Assembly (NCBI GenBank): GCA_913757435.1
Contig: CAJYDM010000001.1
Coordinates: 496,001 to 560,000, forward strand
DNA from: Syntrophomonas sp. DTU019
GTDB taxonomy: Bacteria; Bacillota; Syntrophomonadia; Syntrophomonadales; Syntrophomonadaceae
Reading direction: 5' to 3'
Length of the DNA: 64,000 bases
Both the position numbers and the translations under genes were made by a program. Below the pieces are notes generated by a model. It was not told the DNA's origin, did not search any database, and was given only the letters and a program-made list of their open reading frames with translations. Position 1 is the stretch's first letter. Each line of letters begins with the position of its first letter. Shown here one piece after another: positions 47,704 to 64,000 of this stretch.

Positions 47704-47717
47704 AGTTCCTCCTTTCC

Positions 47718-47815
47718 TCCCGGAGTGTTCCAGGGTAAGATGTTTTATTCCCGGTGGATACCGAGTCAAGGGATCATGCGATCCCGTCTGCGCCCTGAAT
47801 AGGGAGCAGACAGGA
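47718..47815 (-). repeat. Structured intergenic repeat unit, copy A
   Basis: Between dnaE (stop 12 bases away) and the 146-aa gene. Reading the minus strand: hairpin I GTCTGC-CCCT-ATTC-AGGG-GCAGAC (47811-47786), hairpin II GGGATC-GCAT-GATCCC (47785-47770), hairpin III around CGGT/ACCG (47765-47750) and hairpin IV CCCTGG-ACAC-CCGGG (47735-47719), then the ribosome binding site. Hairpins I, II and loop sequences are shared with copies B and D. Confidence 0.8.
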
Positions 47816-47822
47816 GGCATGG

Positions 47823-50798
47823 TCAGGCAATTTTCTTTGGTAGCTTATTGGCCCGATAGGCAAATAATTTAAAGCTGTCTTCTTCGAGTTTGGCTTTGCC
47901 TTGGAACATATAGGCTTGTCCGATATCTATTTGCTTATCGAATACTAAGACTCCTATTTGTCCCGAGTAGTCCTCGACAGTTGCGTAGCACCAGGTCTTG
48001 CCATTTTTGCAGCCGTATTTTGTCTGGGTTACAAGCCCGGTTATTTTGACATTGCCTTCATTAATATTGAAGATGTCTTTACTCGCCGGGAGGTTGTAAG
48101 CATCCAAAGGGTGGCTGGAGACATAGAAGCCTAATGATTCTTTTTCAAGGGAGAGCAGTGTATCTAATGCAAATTCCCCTGTGTCGAGGATGTCGGGAAG
48201 CAGGGTTTCCCCCGCGCCGAAAAGGGTTTGTTCATCCTTTTGGACCATTGAGGTTGCTTTTATAATAATAGGAAGGAATTCTAAAAGACTTTTTCGTTTT
48301 CCGAATGCAGATAAGGTACCTGAATTAATAAGGGTTTCTAAAACCCCCTTATTAAGGCGGGTCTTATAGATCAAATCATAAATATCAGAGTAGGGCTGAT
48401 TATTGATGATTCGCTCCAGGGCTGATTCGCCAAGGTTCTTGACTGCGCCAAGGCCGAACCGTATGCCTCCTGAGTCTATCGAGAACTCAACTGCGGATTT
48501 ATTGATGTCCGGCGGGAGGATTTTAATACCCATCCTGCGGCATTCGTTCAACATCCCCGCGATTTTGTCCAGATCGCTGGTGTTGGTCAAGAGCGCAGCC
48601 ATGAATTCAGTGGGGTGGTGCGCCTTGAGGTAAGCGGTTTGGTAAGCAATCAGAGCATACGCGGCTGAATGACTTTTATTAAAACCATAGCCGGAGAAGT
48701 AGTCGATAAGATTAAAGACCTCTTTGGCAATATGTTCGGGTATGCCGTTGTTTACTGAGCCGTCAATGAATTCCTTGCGGAGGTTCTCAATAACTTCGGG
48801 GATTTTTTTCCCTATGCCTTTACGCAGAGTATCGGCGGCGGGGAGGGAGAGGCCGGCCATGTCGGTTGCTATCTTCATGGTCTGCTCTTGGTATAATATG
48901 ACCCCGTAGGTTTCCTTCAAGATGGGTTCTAATATAGGATGGAGGTATTTTATCTCTTTTGTGCCGTGTTTGCAGTCGATAAAGTCGTCCACCATGCCTG
49001 AGCCTAGCGGTCCGGGCCGATATAAGGCTACCATCGCGATAAGCTCCTCGAACCGGTGGGGCTTTAGCTTTCTTAAGATTCGCTGCATACCTTCGGATTC
49101 GACCTGGAATACCCCAATGGTGTGTCCTTGAGATAGGAGGTTGAACACTACCGGGTCGTCAAGGGGAATTTTATTAATATCAATGTCTTTGATTAGTTTA
49201 ACTGCGTCATCTATGATGGTGAGGGTTTTTAACCCCAATATGTCCATCTTTAGAAGGCCAATCTCTTCACAGGTAGACATTTCGTACTGGGTGGTGGTTT
49301 GATTGTCGATTACCTGTGTCGGGATGATGTTATTTAATGGCTCCGAGCCGATTATCACCCCGGCAGCATGGACCCCGGTGTGTCGCGGCATTCCCTCGAT
49401 TTTTTTAGCAGTGTCGATGATGTGTTGGAGATCGGGGTCTGTTGCGTCATCCAGGGAATCGGTTTTCTTGGCAAGCCGGTCGATTTCATACAACGGCTCC
49501 TCCAAGACCCTGCCAACATCTCTGATGGCTGCTCGGGCTGCCATAGTCCCAAAGGTGATGATTTGGGCAACATATTCTTTGCCGTAGCGGTGGGTAATGT
49601 AGTTGACGATTTCCTGCCTTCGGCGGTAGCAAACATCCTGGTCTACATCGGGCATCGAAACCCTGCTAGGGTTGAGGAAACGCTCAAATATCAATCCCCA
49701 ATCCAGAGGATTTAGTTCAGTAATACCTAAAAGATAAGACACCAAGCTGCCTGCTGCTGATCCCCTGCCTGGGCCTACCGGGATACCCTGAGATTTGGCC
49801 CAGTTCACGATGTCCTGGACTATCAAAAAGTAGTCTGCGAAGCCCATGTTGGATATTATTTCTAGTTCATAGTTCAGCCTACTGACGACTTGAGGACTGG
49901 GGGTTTTGGGGAATCTTTTTGGGAGTCCTAAAAAGGCTTTTTCTCTAAGGGTTTTTACTGTGTCCTCTACAGGGAATTTCGGAAGCAGTATTCTGCCGAA
50001 TTCTAATTCTAAGTTGCATTTTTCGGCGATTACTGCGGTGTTGGATATTGCTTCGGGGGTTTCTCTGAAAAGACTTTTCATTTCTTCGGGCGACTTAAAA
50101 TAAAACTGGTCGTTGAAGAATCTGAATCGTTCAGGATTGGACAATACGTTCTTGGTGCCGATGCACAATAATATATCCTGGGTTTCTGCGTCTTCCTGAT
50201 TAATGTAGTGAGTGTCGTTGGTGGCGACTAGCTGGATATTGTGGTTTTGGGCTAACCTGATTAACTCCGGGTTTACTGCTTTTTCTTCGGGTAAGCCGTG
50301 GTCCATAAGCTCCAAATAGTAGTCATCGCCGAACAGCTCTTTGAATTCGGTGAGACGCGCGTCCACTTCTTTTCTATCCTGAATCAGTCTCGGGATTTCG
50401 CCTCCGATACAACCTGATAGCGCGATCAGCCCTTCGTGGTGCTGAGTCAAAAGCTCCCAGTCTATTCGAGGCTTATAATAAAATCCTTCCGAGTAGGCGC
50501 GGGAAACAAGCTGGATAAGATTCTGGTATCCTGTTTTGTTTTTACATAACAGCACTAGATGGTAGTTGGTTCTGTCTTTGCTGAACCAGTCGGGGACATA
50601 GTAGGTTTCACAGCCTATTATGGGGTTCAATCCAGCCTTTTTGCAGGCTTTATAAAAATCAATGGCCCCGTAAAGGTTCCCATGGTCGGTTATAGCAACT
50701 GCTGGCATATTAAAAGACCTGGCTTTAGCAACCAAGTCTTTAACGCGGGAGGCCCCGTCTAGGAGGCTGTATTCACTGTGGTTATGCAGATGTATCAA
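47823..50798 (-). CDS. dnaE: DNA polymerase III alpha subunit carried by the element
   Basis: Replicative C-family polymerase. PHP domain at the N-terminus (LHNHSEYSLLDGA, then AITDHGNLYGA), palm with PVGPGRGSAAGSLVSY and catalytic aspartates in MPDVDQDV near 382-389, helix-hairpin-helix region, and a C-terminal OB fold (VKITGLVTQTKYG). 991 aa, shorter than the ~1150 of chromosomal DnaE; the tail beyond the OB fold is missing. TTG start with AAAGGAG nine bases upstream. Behind a promoter, a 21-codon leader frame and a terminator. Confidence 0.95.
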   Translation of the reverse strand: MIHLHNHSEYSLLDGASRVKDLVAKARSFNMPAVAITDHGNLYGAIDFYKACKKAGLNPIIGCETYYVPDWFSKDRTNYHLVLLCKNKTGYQNLIQLVSRAYSEGFYYKPRIDWELLTQHHEGLIALSGCIGGEIPRLIQDRKEVDARLTEFKELFGDDYYLELMDHGLPEEKAVNPELIRLAQNHNIQLVATNDTHYINQEDAETQDILLCIGTKNVLSNPERFRFFNDQFYFKSPEEMKSLFRETPEAISNTAVIAEKCNLELEFGRILLPKFPVEDTVKTLREKAFLGLPKRFPKTPSPQVVSRLNYELEIISNMGFADYFLIVQDIVNWAKSQGIPVGPGRGSAAGSLVSYLLGITELNPLDWGLIFERFLNPSRVSMPDVDQDVCYRRRQEIVNYITHRYGKEYVAQIITFGTMAARAAIRDVGRVLEEPLYEIDRLAKKTDSLDDATDPDLQHIIDTAKKIEGMPRHTGVHAAGVIIGSEPLNNIIPTQVIDNQTTTQYEMSTCEEIGLLKMDILGLKTLTIIDDAVKLIKDIDINKIPLDDPVVFNLLSQGHTIGVFQVESEGMQRILRKLKPHRFEELIAMVALYRPGPLGSGMVDDFIDCKHGTKEIKYLHPILEPILKETYGVILYQEQTMKIATDMAGLSLPAADTLRKGIGKKIPEVIENLRKEFIDGSVNNGIPEHIAKEVFNLIDYFSGYGFNKSHSAAYALIAYQTAYLKAHHPTEFMAALLTNTSDLDKIAGMLNECRRMGIKILPPDINKSAVEFSIDSGGIRFGLGAVKNLGESALERIINNQPYSDIYDLIYKTRLNKGVLETLINSGTLSAFGKRKSLLEFLPIIIKATSMVQKDEQTLFGAGETLLPDILDTGEFALDTLLSLEKESLGFYVSSHPLDAYNLPASKDIFNINEGNVKITGLVTQTKYGCKNGKTWCYATVEDYSGQIGVLVFDKQIDIGQAYMFQGKAKLEEDSFKLFAYRANKLPKKIA

Positions 50799-50821
50799 AA
50801 TATCATCTCCTTTTCACGAAA

Positions 50822-50850
50822 GCAAAAAAGCTCCGCAACCTGCGAGCTTT
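50822..50850 (-). terminator. Intrinsic terminator in the dnaE leader
   Basis: Stem AAAGCTC(C)GCA/TGCGAGCTTT with a three-base loop and TTTTTT on the minus strand, between the leader frame's stop codon and the dnaE ribosome binding site. A second hairpin CCGAAACAGC/GCTGTTTCGG (50873-50904) lies within the leader frame and could form a competing structure. Confidence 0.8.
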
Positions 50851-50916
50851 CTAGTTCTTCTTAATACAAAAGCCGAAACAGCCAGGTTTTACTAGCTGTT
50901 TCGGGGTTTTGCACAT
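50851..50916 (-). CDS. Possible 21-aa leader peptide of dnaE
   Basis: MCKTPKQLVKPGCFGFCIKK plus a final N, preceded by GAGG seven bases before the ATG. Three cysteines and six lysines in 21 residues. The stop codon abuts the terminator stem, the arrangement of an attenuator leader. Not recognised as a known peptide; could also be a small secreted or signalling peptide. Confidence 0.5.
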   Translation of the reverse strand: MCKTPKQLVKPGCFGFCIKKN

Positions 50917-50959
50917 TTTTCTACCTCATGGGTAATAAAGATGGTGTGGTGTTATGTTT

Positions 50960-50988
50960 ATTATATAACATATAACTTATAAAGTAAA
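50960..50988 (-). promoter_or_regulatory. Sigma-A-type promoter of the dnaE transcript
   Basis: Minus strand TTTACT (50988-50983), 17 bp, TATAAT (50965-50960), giving a leader of about 155 bases before dnaE. Confidence 0.6.
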
Positions 50989-51033
50989 TAATCTGGTGAT
51001 TTTACTTTATAGGTTACTTACTTTTGCAAAGGA

Positions 51034-51081
51034 TTGCTTATTTGCACAATTTATTGTATAATATGTATAGATTATACAATA
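51034..51081 (+). promoter_or_regulatory. Promoter and palindromic operator of the RHH gene
   Basis: TTGCTT (51034-51039), 17 bp spacer, TATAAT (51057-51062). An inverted repeat with perfect 11 bp arms TATTGTATAAT/ATTATACAATA (51052-51062 and 51071-51081, eight-base spacer) covers the -10 box and start region. Likely binding site of the ribbon-helix-helix protein encoded just downstream. Confidence 0.75.
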
Positions 51082-51100
51082 TATACATGGAGGCACTTCA

Positions 51101-51538
51101 ATGAAAGATATTATGACAAACATAACATTGCCTGCCGATGAGGACCGGGCCTTGAAAATCAAGGCAGCCGAGGCTGGCCTGTCAAAGCGCAGCCTGGCTA
51201 CCCAGATTACAAGGGATTGGCTTAAAGAGCAGGGCGCAAAATCCCGCATATCCGATATAATCGCCCAAGTAGGAAGAATGCCGGATAACGAGAAGTTTTT
51301 TCAAGCAGTTGAGTCTTTGGTTGAAGGCAGCGCAGCACTTGTCCGTTGCCGAGTACAAAAGGGTGTCGCAGATGATTTTGGCAACGAATACAAACTGGCT
51401 TCTGAAGAAGCATCGGCGCGGAAACAGATTTTGGATTCTTTGGAAATACTGAGGCAAGTAGTTGACATCCCAGAAATTGACGCGGATGTTTTCAGTGCGC
51501 TTTTGGTCGAGGATTATTTTAAGAAGCGGATTCGTTGA
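51101..51538 (+). CDS. Ribbon-helix-helix-like regulator (145 aa)
   Basis: The N-terminal ~45 residues (TNITLPADEDRALKIKAAEA then SKRSLATQITRDWLKEQ) look like a ribbon-helix-helix DNA-binding domain; the rest is helical and unrecognised. It is the only gene reading rightward in the element and is divergent from dnaE, so it may control both directions. GGAGG seven bases before the ATG. Its 3' end overlaps the convergent 123-aa gene by 20 bases. Confidence 0.7.
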   Translation: MKDIMTNITLPADEDRALKIKAAEAGLSKRSLATQITRDWLKEQGAKSRISDIIAQVGRMPDNEKFFQAVESLVEGSAALVRCRVQKGVADDFGNEYKLASEEASARKQILDSLEILRQVVDIPEIDADVFSALLVEDYFKKRIR

Positions 51539-52505: not shown

Positions 52506-52518
52506 GATTCTCCTTTCT

Positions 52519-52609
52519 CCCGGCGTGTGCCGGGCTAAAATTTCTGTACCCGATGAGTACCGGGGCAATGGATCATGCGATCCCGCCTGCGCCCAAATAG
52601 GGCGCAGGC
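52519..52609 (-). repeat. Structured intergenic repeat unit, copy B
   Basis: Between nrdD (stop 12 bases away, same distance as in copy A) and the 68-aa gene. Hairpin I is a perfect 10 bp stem GCCTGCGCCC/GGGCGCAGGC, hairpin II GGATC-GCAT-GATCC, hairpin III CCCG/CGGG, hairpin IV CCCGGC-ACAC-GCCGGG. Stem pairs differ from copy A by paired changes. Confidence 0.8.
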
Positions 52610-52620
52610 AGCAGACACGA

Positions 52621-54681
52621 TCAGACGTTTGTGTAGATAGCGTATTTTTTTCTGCTCTTGGCTTCTAATTGCTTGCCCTTGTTGAATTGCTTGATGGGCC
52701 GGAGATACCCTACTACGCGGGAATAGACTTCGGTTTCTTCGCCGCAATCCGGGCAAGTGAACTGTTCGCCTTTTAAATACCCGTGGATTTGACACACTGA
52801 GAAACTCGGGGTTATCGAATAGTACGGGATTCTGAAGTGGACCATCTTTTGCAGAAGGCGCTTGATTGCCTCTGCAGAGGGAGATTCACCTAAGAACACA
52901 TGGAACACCGTACCACCAGTGTAGAGTTCCTGTAAGTCCTGTTGGTGTGACAGGGCTTCAAATAGGTCATCAGTATAATTGACCGGGAGTTGGGTGGAGT
53001 TGCTGTAGTAAGGGTGCGGGCTTCCGTGGCGTTCTTTATCCTTCAGTAAAAGGCTGTACGAACAACCTTCGGCTGGAGTGGCTTCAAGATTGTAAAGATT
53101 TCCTGTTTTTTGCTGGTAGCACCTGATTCTTTCGCGCATGAAGTTTAAGGTTTCGACTGCGAATTCATGACCAACAGGATCAGCAATATTGACTCCTAAA
53201 AGATTCAAGCAGGCTTCGTTCATACCCACTAAACCAATAGTGGAAAAGTGATTGTTCCAATATCGTCCTGTGGCCTGTTTTACGCCTTTAAGATAGTGTT
53301 TGGTGTAGGGGTATAACCCCTGGTCGGTGAAGTTTTCTAAGACTTTGCGCTTGATCTCTAAAGACTGAGAAGCAATATCCATTAGTAAGCCTAACCGGGA
53401 GAAGAAGTCTTCTTTGTTTTGAGATAAGTGCCCCAACCTGGGTATGTTGATGGTTACTACACCGATACTGCCCGTAAGAGGATTGGATCCAAATAGACCG
53501 CCCCCGCGCTTCTGGAGTTCGCGGTTGTCTAACCGTAAGCGGCAGCACATACTCCGCGCGTCTTCGGGAGACATATCAGAACCCACGAAGTTCGAGAAGT
53601 AAGGTATGCCGTACTTTGCGGTCATTTCCCAAACGTGATTGAAATTTTCGTCTTCCCAGTTAAAATCCTCAGTGATGTTGTAAGTGGGGATGGGAAAAGT
53701 AAAGACTCTACCGTCGGCATCGCCATCGATCATCACCTCAGTAAAGGCGCGGTTGAGCATATCCATTTCTTCTTGGAATTCTCCGTAGGTCAGGTCTAGC
53801 ATTTCGCCGCCGACTACCACCGGAGAGTAGCTCATATGATTTGGGCAAACAATGTCCATTGTAAGATTGGAAAAAGGGGTTTGGAAACCAACTCGTGTCG
53901 GCACGTTAAGGTTGTAGATAAACTCTTGCATCGCTTGTTTTACTTGTTGAAAATCGAGAGCATCATAAAATATAAACGGAGCCAATAGAGTATCAAAGTT
54001 TGAAAACGCCTGTGCGCCTGCTGCTTCGCCCTGCAAGGTGTAAAGGTAGTTAACTATCTGTCCCAACGCAGTCCTGAAGTGTTTAGGCGGCTTTGAGGCG
54101 ATTTTGCCTTTAACTCCCCTGAAGCCCTGCGCCAACAAGTCTTCTAAAGACCACCCCACGCAGTACGGTCCTAAAACGGAGGTGTCATGGATATGAATAT
54201 CGCCGGATTCGTGGGCCTGGCGGATGGGGTCGGAATATAGCCGGTGGAGCCAATAATCCTCAACCAATCTGCCGGAGATGTGAAAGTTCATCCCCTGTAA
54301 GCTGAAGCACATATTGGAATTTTCGTTGATGCGCCAGTCATTTTGACTGACATATTTTTCGATCACATCATTGTTTATTTGCTTGATAGCCTGGGTTTCC
54401 CGGTTGTCCTGGTGCTGTTTGCGGTAGATGATATAAGCTTTAGCTGTCTTATAGTGGCCCGACTTGACCAGAGTCTTTTCTACCTGATCCTGGACTTGTT
54501 CCACAGATGCTATTTTATCAGGATATTTGTTGATTAGAGCAGTCTCAACCACACGGGTTAAATATACTGCCCGGTTAAAGTCTGCGCCGCCGCTGGCTTT
54601 GGCGGCGGCCCAGATTGCGTTAGTGATTTTGATGGGGTCGTATTCCACGACTCTTCCATCGCGTTTGATGATTTGCTTCAT
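52621..54681 (-). CDS. nrdD: Anaerobic (class III) ribonucleoside-triphosphate reductase
   Basis: Oxygen-sensitive glycyl-radical enzyme making dNTPs. N-terminal ATP-cone (IKRDGRVVEYDPIKITNAIW, residues 4-23), catalytic barrel, zinc site with CQIHG near 629 and CPDCG near 645, and the glycyl-radical loop RVVGYLRP near 657-664. 686 aa. AGGAGG before the ATG. No nrdG activase gene is seen in the window, so activation must come from elsewhere. Confidence 0.96.
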   Translation of the reverse strand: MKQIIKRDGRVVEYDPIKITNAIWAAAKASGGADFNRAVYLTRVVETALINKYPDKIASVEQVQDQVEKTLVKSGHYKTAKAYIIYRKQHQDNRETQAIKQINNDVIEKYVSQNDWRINENSNMCFSLQGMNFHISGRLVEDYWLHRLYSDPIRQAHESGDIHIHDTSVLGPYCVGWSLEDLLAQGFRGVKGKIASKPPKHFRTALGQIVNYLYTLQGEAAGAQAFSNFDTLLAPFIFYDALDFQQVKQAMQEFIYNLNVPTRVGFQTPFSNLTMDIVCPNHMSYSPVVVGGEMLDLTYGEFQEEMDMLNRAFTEVMIDGDADGRVFTFPIPTYNITEDFNWEDENFNHVWEMTAKYGIPYFSNFVGSDMSPEDARSMCCRLRLDNRELQKRGGGLFGSNPLTGSIGVVTINIPRLGHLSQNKEDFFSRLGLLMDIASQSLEIKRKVLENFTDQGLYPYTKHYLKGVKQATGRYWNNHFSTIGLVGMNEACLNLLGVNIADPVGHEFAVETLNFMRERIRCYQQKTGNLYNLEATPAEGCSYSLLLKDKERHGSPHPYYSNSTQLPVNYTDDLFEALSHQQDLQELYTGGTVFHVFLGESPSAEAIKRLLQKMVHFRIPYYSITPSFSVCQIHGYLKGEQFTCPDCGEETEVYSRVVGYLRPIKQFNKGKQLEAKSRKKYAIYTNV

Positions 54682-58061: not shown

Positions 58062-58079
58062 AAAACCAGCTCCTTTTCT

Positions 58080-58144
58080 CCCGGAGTGTTCCGGGGTATG
58101 ATATTTATTCCCGGCGGATGCCGGGGTAATGGATCATGCGATCC
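58080..58144 (-). repeat. Structured intergenic repeat unit, copy C
   Basis: Hairpin II GGATC-GCAT-GATCC (58131-58144), hairpin III CCCGGC/GCCGGG (58110-58126) and hairpin IV CCCGGA-ACAC-type loop-TCCGGG (58080-58096), then the ribosome binding site of the 265-aa gene. Hairpin I of the other copies is missing; a different long stem (11 bp arms with one mismatch, GCGCAGGAGGT/ACCTGCTGCGC, 58197-58228) stands upstream instead. Confidence 0.75.
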
Positions 58145-58248
58145 AGCCAATTTGCTATTTTAAGTAAACAGGTGGATAGTATGAGCAGGAACTTGCCCGC
58201 GCAGGAGGTCTTTTTTAAAACCTGCTGCGCCGGGAAATCCCGGCTTAA

Positions 58249-58521: not shown

Positions 58522-58607
58522 CAAAAACTCCTTTCTGTGGCGCGTGCCAACTTAAAAACTCATTGCAACTCGCGTAATTTGGCGGTCGTTATTTCGGCGT
58601 GTTTAGG

Positions 58608-58699
58608 CCCGGAGTGTTCCAGGGTAATATTTCTGTACCTGGCGAGTACCAAGGCAAGGGATCATGCGATCCCGTCTGCGCCCTGAATAGGGAGCAGAC
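58608..58699 (-). repeat. Structured intergenic repeat unit, copy D
   Basis: Between the primase gene (stop 59 bases away) and the 90-aa membrane protein gene. Hairpin I identical to copy A (GTCTGC...GCAGAC, 58674-58699), hairpin II GGGATC-GCAT-GATCCC (58658-58673), hairpin III CCTGG/CCAAGG (58636-58654) and hairpin IV as in copy A (58608-58624). Unlike A to C, hairpin IV is 87 bases from the next start codon. Confidence 0.8.
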
Positions 58700-58757
58700 A
58701 GGAGACATGAGCTTTATTCCCATGAATTGATAACAGGGAGTCTTTTTCGAGTGAGAT

Positions 58758-60892: not shown

Positions 60893-60921
60893 AAGGGTCC
60901 TGTTAATTTAACAGGACCCTT
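60893..60921 (-). terminator. Long palindrome at the end of the VWA gene
   Basis: 14 bp arms AAGGGTCCTGTTAA/TTAACAGGACCCTT almost back to back, the 5' arm on the minus strand encoding the last residues and stop codon of the VWA protein. Followed by AATC, so not a classical terminator; lies just before the nuclease gene's ribosome binding site. Confidence 0.6.
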
Positions 60922-61205
60922 TTAAATACTTCTCCCAACCTGATCGGGAGCATATTGAGGTCGTCTACATACGCCGGGTTTTCATACATATACATGAACT
61001 CTGGCAGTTCGCTGCTGCTACCGAAGAAAAGAGAAATCAGATTGATTCCTCTCTTTTTGGCTTCGAGGGCGGCCTGTTTGGTGTCGTTCTCGCCGAGGCT
61101 ACCCATATAACCGGTTCCTCCGTGGCGGGGCGAACCATCTGATAATACGAACAGGACTTTTTTAGGCTCTGAGCGCATCGAAAGCTCGTTAGTGGCGAAA
61201 TAGGG

Positions 61206-63549
61206 ATAGGTAAGGCTTTTGAAGTTATCTTCTATTTTCCCCCACACCGTGACTTTCACCTCAGCGTTCCATCGGCATTCAAGTCAATTTCTATGGATTA
61301 TACTTGGTGATCAATCTTGGGTTCAACTGAATTTTGTTCGATTTGTTGCCTTCGCAATCTGTTTTTCGTCTAGCATAAGGCACTCTATCAATGGTGCAGG
61401 TATCGTTGCATGGATTAGTTGATGGACTGTTTATTGATCATCGGGTTTTGATATTTATCGGCTCCACCTACTTTGGCGGATGATGACAGTGAATGTCATC
61501 GTAGTCCATGTTCTCCTTGTTATGGCGCACCTGCCTTTTACGAATAAAATACGATTGTCGCATTCTAATGATTGTTCCATTACAGGGTTTAACATCAGAT
61601 ATTGTAGTACTTGGTCTAATTGCAAGATTTTGTGAATTTCCTTTCGCCTTCTGTGTATTGATAGATCGCTTCTTTGCATAGATTTTGGTTTGAACATAGC
61701 TTACAACCGCCATTGGATGTCCATCAGGTATCGCATCTGTTTGGATTTCCCGTAAAGGTCTTGTTATTGCGTTGTTCAAATCTTTTATTTCTTTTTGTAA
61801 CCTACTTCTTAAACGGTTTTGGTGGTTATGGCAACTCTGCCTATTATGCTCAGATTAATGTTAGTGGCTATGCGATAATGTTAATCCTAAGACCATTTGA
61901 ACTCTTTGCAGTTCTGGTATTCGCTTTATCATCTTTGGGTCTTCGCATTTTTGACTTGTTGCTTTAATTTTAAGGTAGCGTTTTCTTGCTTTATCACTAA
62001 GTGCGTGATTTAACTTGTTTGCTGCCTTTGTTTTGAACTTTAATTTTGAAAACCAATTCATATTGTCGTTTCAGATTGACAACTCTAGTTTTTCGGGCGA
62101 TATTTCCAGCTTCACCTTTTCTAACCATTTCGTGGCTACGTTTTGATTCTTGTTCGACAGAAGTTCTAAAGTCGTCTATCTTACTATATACATTTCTTTC
62201 AGATTGGTTTTCTTCATGGCTGTGTATCCATTGGTAATTGATTGTTCCGTTTTACTGGGATGCTATGAGTCTTACTGGATTGGTCCATTATTTTATCATT
62301 TATCAGTTCATTTAGAACTTGTTATAGCAATGGCGATAGGATTTGGGGTTCCCTTAGGCCTGATAACGTTATCTGGCATTTGGATGGTGCGAAGAATTTT
62401 TCGATTATATATAGCAAGGTTTATCCTTATACCCAATGACCACATTATTCATTTCGATGGTTTACATTGTCGAACTTTGATATCGAATCTATAGCGTAAT
62501 TAACCCTTGTCGTATATATGATAGTTTGAGCAATAGCCGTTTCACTACTTCTATTGGGTCTGGAACGACCTATCGCTGAATTTTTGTTTCGAGATTGGTT
62601 CAAGGACTTTTACATTGCTGTATAACCTGTCCATATACACGGAATTCCTGCGAGTTTTTCTTTCGTTGGGCTTGGGGATATCTTTACGACGGACTGCTCT
62701 ATGGTAGTTTTTAGTATTCTCGGACTTATCAACCATTCGGACGGCATTTGCCGACTGATTTATGGTTAATTGTCAGTTCCAGGGGTGTTGCTCCTGGTGC
62801 TTTTGATATTCCTATATGCCAAAGTATGTTTTCATGGCTGGTGATGACTTCCATAAGGTTGTCAAAATTTTACCTTCACATTTCTTTATATAGGTTGTCA
62901 AAAGTATCCTGGAGTCCATACCGTTGTGCCTAAGATTGTTTATTTTCATAGTATTAAGGATCTACCTCTTTCCTTGTTTTAGAGTGATCCTTTGGTCTTA
63001 CTGTAACCCTTTGTTCATCCATAGTTTTGGTTTGAATGCTAGAGGCTGTTCTTCATCTTCATTACAAGACTTCTTCGGTCGTGCTCCGCTTTCACTCGCC
63101 GATCAACTCATTTTTCTTCGTCAGTTTATTGTTTTCAACTCGGCAGCTTCCTCGTTCCGATAACTTATCTATGCATATCCGGGTTCTGCTTTGAGCCTGT
63201 TAGCATAGTGCCTGTAACACTATGGTGTTCATAACTCAAATTACCCACCACACTAACACAACAGGGTATCATTTCTACACATTTGGCTTTTAGACCACAT
63301 TCGCAGATTCGTCATGTTTTACCAATTCTAACATAGATATTTTGTAGACCCCGGCCTATAGGTAAACCATCCACTCCTGACGCTTTCGTATTGATTACTC
63401 AATTCAGTTACTTCAGCCGACTTCTCCGGGCTTCATTTGCCGCTGGAGTATTTCAGGTAGCGTTTCAGGGTCCCCGTCATTCCACCTTTGGGTTATCAGT
63501 TCTCCATCTTGCTATCATGCCTAAACTTTTCATTAGGAACGAGTCGCAC
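61206..63549 (-). mobile_element. Degenerate group II intron
   Basis: The minus strand begins with the canonical GTGCGAC at 63549, followed by domain I-like sequence (GAAGTAACTGAATTGAGTAA, GGATGGTTTACC) and a GAGTGAAAGCGGAGCA segment. A broken reverse transcriptase frame occupies the middle. Near the 3' end, GGAACGC...GGTGAAAGTC...ACGGTGTGG then GGGGGAAAA resembles domain V/VI but is several bases short of the 34-base domain V. The 3' end is placed at CTTACCTAT (61206); an in-frame exon junction would need the end one base further on. A-T-rich relative to neighbours. Confidence 0.8.
61323..62872 (-). pseudogene. Group II intron reverse transcriptase/maturase with HNH domain, frameshifted
   Basis: Pieces of one protein in three frames: LMEVITSHENIL then LAYRNIKSTRSNTPGTD (RT0/RT1), AVRRKDIPKPNERKTR and VLEPISKQKFSD (RT2), GRSRPNRSSETAIAQTI, KFDNVNH (catalytic YADD region not recovered), and a C-terminal HNH remnant DYDDIHCHH followed out of frame by VGGADKYQN and LIHATIPAP, ending TGA at 61323. 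At least five frameshifts, so no functional protein. Confidence 0.8.
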
Positions 63550-64000
63550 TCGAATAGCCATCGCGGTTTCTCATCGCATCAAAATGGGCTATCGGAGACG
63601 AATCTTCGCTGCAATCGATTTGGCTTTTGAGATAGACACTGAGGAGGCGTGGTGCTGCGAAAAACCCGCTGATTTTGTGGGTGATCTTTAACGCCCGGCA
63701 GGTTTCTGATAATACGCAGGTGGCGTTTTTTGCTGATTCCATTCTTGTTCCGGCACCCATTGACCCGGATAAATCTACTAATACAAAGACTGCCAGTTCG
63801 GGGATGTCCCCTGGGATAGTCCGTTTAGTAAATACTGTGGGGTCAGGTATGGCTAGTTTATAAAGCGATCCGGCGTGTAGTCTGCCCCGGTGAAGTCCTC
63901 GGATATCGTAGGATTTCTTGGTTTCATTCTGATTTCAATAAGTTTTGCAATTATTTCGTTGCTTTTTTAATGTGGAGTTATCTGAGGAAAATAATTCGTG

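Follow-up and report, generated by a model that had tools for sequence, protein, structure and literature searches.

A putative premature-termination leader ahead of a second dnaE gene in an apparent plasmid-like or conjugative element of Syntrophomonas sp. DTU019

How is a second dnaE gene expressed when it is carried by what looks like a mobile element and is preceded, on its own strand, by a promoter, a short reading frame and two terminator-like hairpins? The question is raised by a 64,000-nucleotide stretch of Syntrophomonas sp. DTU019 (assembly GCA_913757435.1, contig CAJYDM010000001.1, positions 496,001 to 560,000), which we call the window and in which all coordinates are given unless a contig is named. 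A preliminary description had read the region ahead of the gene as a transcription attenuator in which a leader peptide might sense the supply of cysteine or lysine. We consider it somewhat probable that this region is a premature-termination leader, of the attenuator type, belonging to the element's own dnaE unit, and we regard control of read-through into dnaE by a leader peptide as rather unlikely.

The dnaE gene and the element around it

The element's dnaE (47823..50798, minus strand) encodes 991 amino acids from a TTG start at 50798, with a Shine-Dalgarno sequence, AAGGAG, located 8 nt upstream, and its product has the full PHP/alpha/finger/HHH domain structure of the polymerase. It is a second gene in addition to the chromosomal dnaE of the same genome, with which it shares 54%. 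In searches covering the genus, 151 relatives, 502 GTDB loci, IMG/VR, phages and plasmids, the closest DnaE proteins were chromosomal copies of about 54% identity, with the remainder at 38-48%, and nothing above about 54% was found in relatives, GTDB species, IMG/VR, phages or plasmids.

The gene is situated at one side of a long block, mostly on the minus strand, that begins just past spoIIR and extends beyond the window. This block has the appearance of an integrated element of conjugative or plasmid-like type; it contains nrdD, a primase-like DUF3854 gene, a Cas4-like nuclease, SSB, RecT and an actin-like gene, as well as two type II/IV secretion ATPases and a VirB4/TcpF-like ATPase. A second, shortened copy adjoins insertion sequences or transposase-like genes on contig C4 (G000:C4:153907-155367; L043:3908-5368); dnaE is reduced in it to its end, which is followed by downstream genes (95-99% identical), and the leader is absent. 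Searching with neighbouring genes showed that two further genomes contain a related element (G044:C22:90001-130000, loci L137 and L138, and G267:C54, loci L139 and L140). Common to both are nrdD (61%), DUF3854 and a gene of 368 amino acids, and one of them has relatives of two more genes. Judged by eye, these related elements have what look like sliding clamp and DNA ligase genes, yet despite such replication genes no DnaE match was found in the stretches that were read.

The element also contains a 115-nt structured intercistronic RNA, R1, which is separate from the dnaE leader and occurs in five copies, all on the minus strand: four in the window (47707-47823, 52507-52621, 58068-58180 and 58596-58711) and a fifth before ssb (G000:C1:565160-565278; L046:5160-5278). 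Most copies run up to the ribosome site of the gene that follows, and the stems show compensatory changes (for example, alignment columns 17-36, GC to AU; 64-73, GC to AU; 63-74, CG to UA). Within the window R1 had no Rfam match at the gathering score, its own genome held no further copy, and among 299 genomes of the phylum the only other match was weak (G014:C66, E 9.7e-5); there is a weak possible relative in the related element of G044. R1 is apparently undescribed, and could be an element for processing, translation or antitermination. Elsewhere in the window, a Group II intron RNA (RF02004) lies at 63341-63504 on the minus strand, within 60903-63760; the intron's protein seems degraded, and the gene that it splits resembles, on visual inspection, a von Willebrand A-type gene belonging to the element.

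Promoter, operator-like repeat and terminator-like hairpins

A sigma-A-type promoter, TTTACT-17-TATAAT, occupies positions 50960..50988 of the minus strand and matches the consensus at 10 of 12 positions (TTTACT 50988-50983, a 17-nt spacer, TATAAT 50965-50960), with a transcription start predicted near 50952. Taken alone, such a match is not beyond chance in this AT-rich stretch, since 12.7% of shuffles equal it. Its -35 box is overlain by a 16-nt inverted repeat with a 12-nt gap (50973..51016; arms 50973-50988 and 51001-51016), complementary at 15 of 16 positions (94%), which was seen in none of 300 shuffles and is not closely matched anywhere else in the window. The repeat is probably a repressor operator, so that the dnaE promoter would be repressor-controlled as well, and because the repeat sits on the -35 box we infer that the promoter is real and regulated.

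Facing away from dnaE, a divergent gene on the plus strand (51101..51538) encodes 145 amino acids. Its -10 box is covered by a perfect 9-bp palindrome, TTGTATAAT/ATTATACAA (window 51049-51088), suggesting autoregulation. To our own eye the N-terminus of the product looks like a ribbon-helix-helix DNA-binding segment; Pfam returned no match for it and, used as a search query, it found only a 45-residue match elsewhere.

Between the promoter and dnaE there are two hairpins, both in the sense orientation. T1 (50873..50904, minus strand) has 13 pairs and lies inside the short frame; its stem can be extended to about 50914/50864, at which length it reaches about -22 kcal/mol and ranks among the strongest terminator-like sites on the minus strand of the element. 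T2 (50825..50852, minus strand; about -12 kcal/mol) is a predicted intrinsic terminator that starts from the frame's stop codon and has a tail of six T residues (TTTTTT, 50829-50824). The leader as a whole folds at -49.9 kcal/mol, as against -30.8 +/- 3.8 kcal/mol in dinucleotide shuffles (z -5.0; 0/200). There is no clear promoter in the interval from T2 to dnaE, the only good one being that upstream of T1. The parts and their order are plain from the sequence, and the preliminary description had placed the promoter, frame, hairpins, junction of stop codon and terminator, and TTG correctly on the minus strand. It had passed over the repeat that overlaps the -35 box and a third terminator-like hairpin, which lies early in the dnaE coding sequence. 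The latter, T3 (50713..50743, minus strand; -15 kcal/mol), spans codons 19-29 or so, with a stem, AAAGACTTGGTTGCTAAAGCCAGGTCTTT, at about 50743-50715 followed by a tail, TTTTAATA; it may be a chance feature of coding sequence, or may make early elongation dependent on translation of dnaE. T1 and T2 were also considered as plain tail terminators of an upstream minus-strand operon, an explanation that we reject because a plus-strand gene intervenes.

With this arrangement, transcription would begin near 50952, and the repeat across the promoter probably allows it to be repressed as well; most polymerases would stop at T1 or T2, producing RNAs of about 85-90 or 130 nt, and dnaE would be made only from those transcripts that read through. 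The hairpins might alternatively serve to halt stray transcription into the replication genes during quiescence, processive antitermination bypassing them when the element is active and the frame being incidental. Precedent for this comes from Tn916, where a terminator that overlaps the start of an orf insulates the DNA-processing and replication genes behind it and is bypassed by canT RNA (PMC11658703), and from the many Gram-positive conjugation operons that combine numerous internal terminators with antitermination (PMC8955417). The element itself has strong, intergenic terminator-like sites predicted on the same strand along its length. However, insulation would not require the good promoter and its operator-like repeat directly upstream of T1, and the genome has a single NusG match, located outside the element, so that no LoaP-type NusG paralogue was found; we therefore see insulation as a possible but rather improbable function.

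The short frame and the release of termination

The frame that contains T1, MCKTPKQLVKPGCFGFCIKKN, runs for 21 codons on the minus strand (50851..50916) from an ATG at 50916 to a TAG at 50853-50851, and has a Shine-Dalgarno sequence, GAGGT (50923..50927, minus strand), 6 nt before the ATG. Of shuffled leaders, 3% have a frame of at least 21 codons led by a Shine-Dalgarno sequence if it must start with ATG, and 12% if any start is allowed; when T1 is held fixed, a Shine-Dalgarno-led frame spans it in 6-14% of shuffles. The codon score falls between those of genes and shifted frames, another frame scoring slightly higher, and fits coding or non-coding sequence alike. Were this a free-standing gene for a protein of 21 amino acids, ended by T2 and with dnaE served by read-through, then its own Shine-Dalgarno sequence, its ATG and a stop codon immediately before a terminator would be as expected, but a hairpin as strongly terminator-like as T1 is not expected inside an ordinary gene, and no homologue was found; we think this very improbable.

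The peptide has three cysteines, as had been counted before, and five lysines (codons 3, 6, 10, 19 and 20) rather than the six previously reported. Enrichment in these two residues has a P value of about 0.007-0.02, uncorrected and for residues chosen post hoc, and the frame has no codon run. The idea that cysteine or lysine supply is the signal is unsupported: their codons are scattered, the frame and its Shine-Dalgarno sequence are not clearly above chance, and no pairing shows a stable antiterminator displacing T2.

A frame so marginally above chance would also suit an attenuator released by something other than a peptide, in which T1 and T2 respond to a small RNA, antisense RNA, RNA-binding protein or ligand while the frame has arisen by chance; T1, very stable by itself, could then be a site of binding or pausing. 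Yet among known leaders, riboswitches and T-boxes in Rfam no family reached its gathering score for the leader, the sub-threshold leader matches being weak (for example, RF04312, 26.4 bits against 59; Thr_leader, 21.8 against 55), and no antisense promoter of note is present at the leader. Release of this kind seems to us unlikely.

Comparison with other genomes adds little on the frame. As a DNA query the leader occurs in a single copy in its own genome and finds only short chance matches among plasmids and phages, and no homologous leader emerged from the collections searched by DNA, DnaE, neighbouring genes and the divergent regulator, which is why the relative conservation of frame and hairpins gives the frame no support. 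Some terminator-like site lies within 300 nt in about one third of 118 dnaE upstream regions, and a survey of that kind is therefore unable to show precedent.

To examine switching, the nascent RNA was folded with the ribosome footprint masked codon by codon. In the absence of a ribosome both hairpins form (T1 0.99, T2 0.87-0.89). With the ribosomal A site at codons 4-17 T1 is lost, and with the ribosome at codons 20-22 T2 falls from 0.87-0.89 to 0.37-0.00, being fully gone at the stop codon. Folding thus establishes that certain ribosome positions are able to block T1 and T2. A possible transient antiterminator (50837..50888, minus strand) pairs AACCUG 50888-50883 with CAGGUU 50842-50837, but it is dominant only with the ribosome at codons 4-6 and the end of T2 still unmade by polymerase; at equilibrium T2 beats it once the U-tract emerges, and 16% of shuffles match its pairing strength, which is not better than chance. 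The first candidate, CGGCUUUU/GAAAGCUCG, was discarded, its probability being near zero with a complete T2. The attenuator order proposed at the outset, with promoter, frame within the first hairpin, terminator and gene, is real, and no pairing shows a stable antiterminator replacing T2.

Modelled in this way, a trp-like switch is not favoured for the dnaE leader, and direct occlusion by a translating ribosome would be the simplest route to read-through. The most likely release would be linked to translation: a ribosome that is translating the short frame would prevent T1, and one at or near the stop codon would cover the 5' arm of T2. Such translation-linked release of T1 and T2 we put forward tentatively, as possible but doubtful. 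A true leader-peptide attenuator on the replicative polymerase of a mobile element, tying the element's replication to the translation status of its host, is in our estimation unlikely. If the host resembles Bacillus subtilis, models of close coupling become less certain here, because in that species RNA polymerase outruns the ribosome (PMC9226507).

Comparison with known systems

The mechanism proposed for the dnaE leader is of a known kind. Attenuation is familiar from biosynthetic, tRNA-synthetase and resistance genes, and we found no description of attenuation of dnaE in the open literature searched. The tet(M) attenuator of the conjugative element Tn916, reportedly described by Su et al. 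in 1992, is said to combine a short leader frame with terminators that it overlaps, ahead of the gene; the dnaE leader is similar, being on a putative mobile element and having a short frame that overlaps terminators. The tet(M) attenuator reportedly governs a ribosome-protection gene in response to tetracycline, and not a polymerase.

In the vmlR leader of B. subtilis the first stem-loop contains an upstream frame, ribosome stalling leads to an antiterminator, and the position of the ribosome sets termination (PMC9226507). The dnaE leader has the same succession of short frame in the first stem-loop, predicted intrinsic terminator and gene. Leaders such as those of vmlR (PMC9226507), ermK, bmrCD and mef-mel (msr) (PMC5418344) have mutually exclusive antiterminators and belong to resistance genes, while that of dnaE has a weak candidate antiterminator and precedes a replicative polymerase gene.

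There is also a resemblance to the T1/T2/T3 terminators of Tn916, in that a mobile element has a terminator, overlapping an orf, ahead of its replication genes (PMC11658703). Tn916 T1, however, is near the element's end and precedes genes that lack a nearby promoter when integrated, whereas the dnaE leader has a promoter directly upstream (PMC11658703). The several terminator-like sites predicted along the element's long same-strand operon are like those of the canT, conAn and LoaP systems. If the dnaE leader is real, premature termination would let a mobile element limit how much of its replicative polymerase is made, either to insulate the host from harm or to couple the polymerase to translation.
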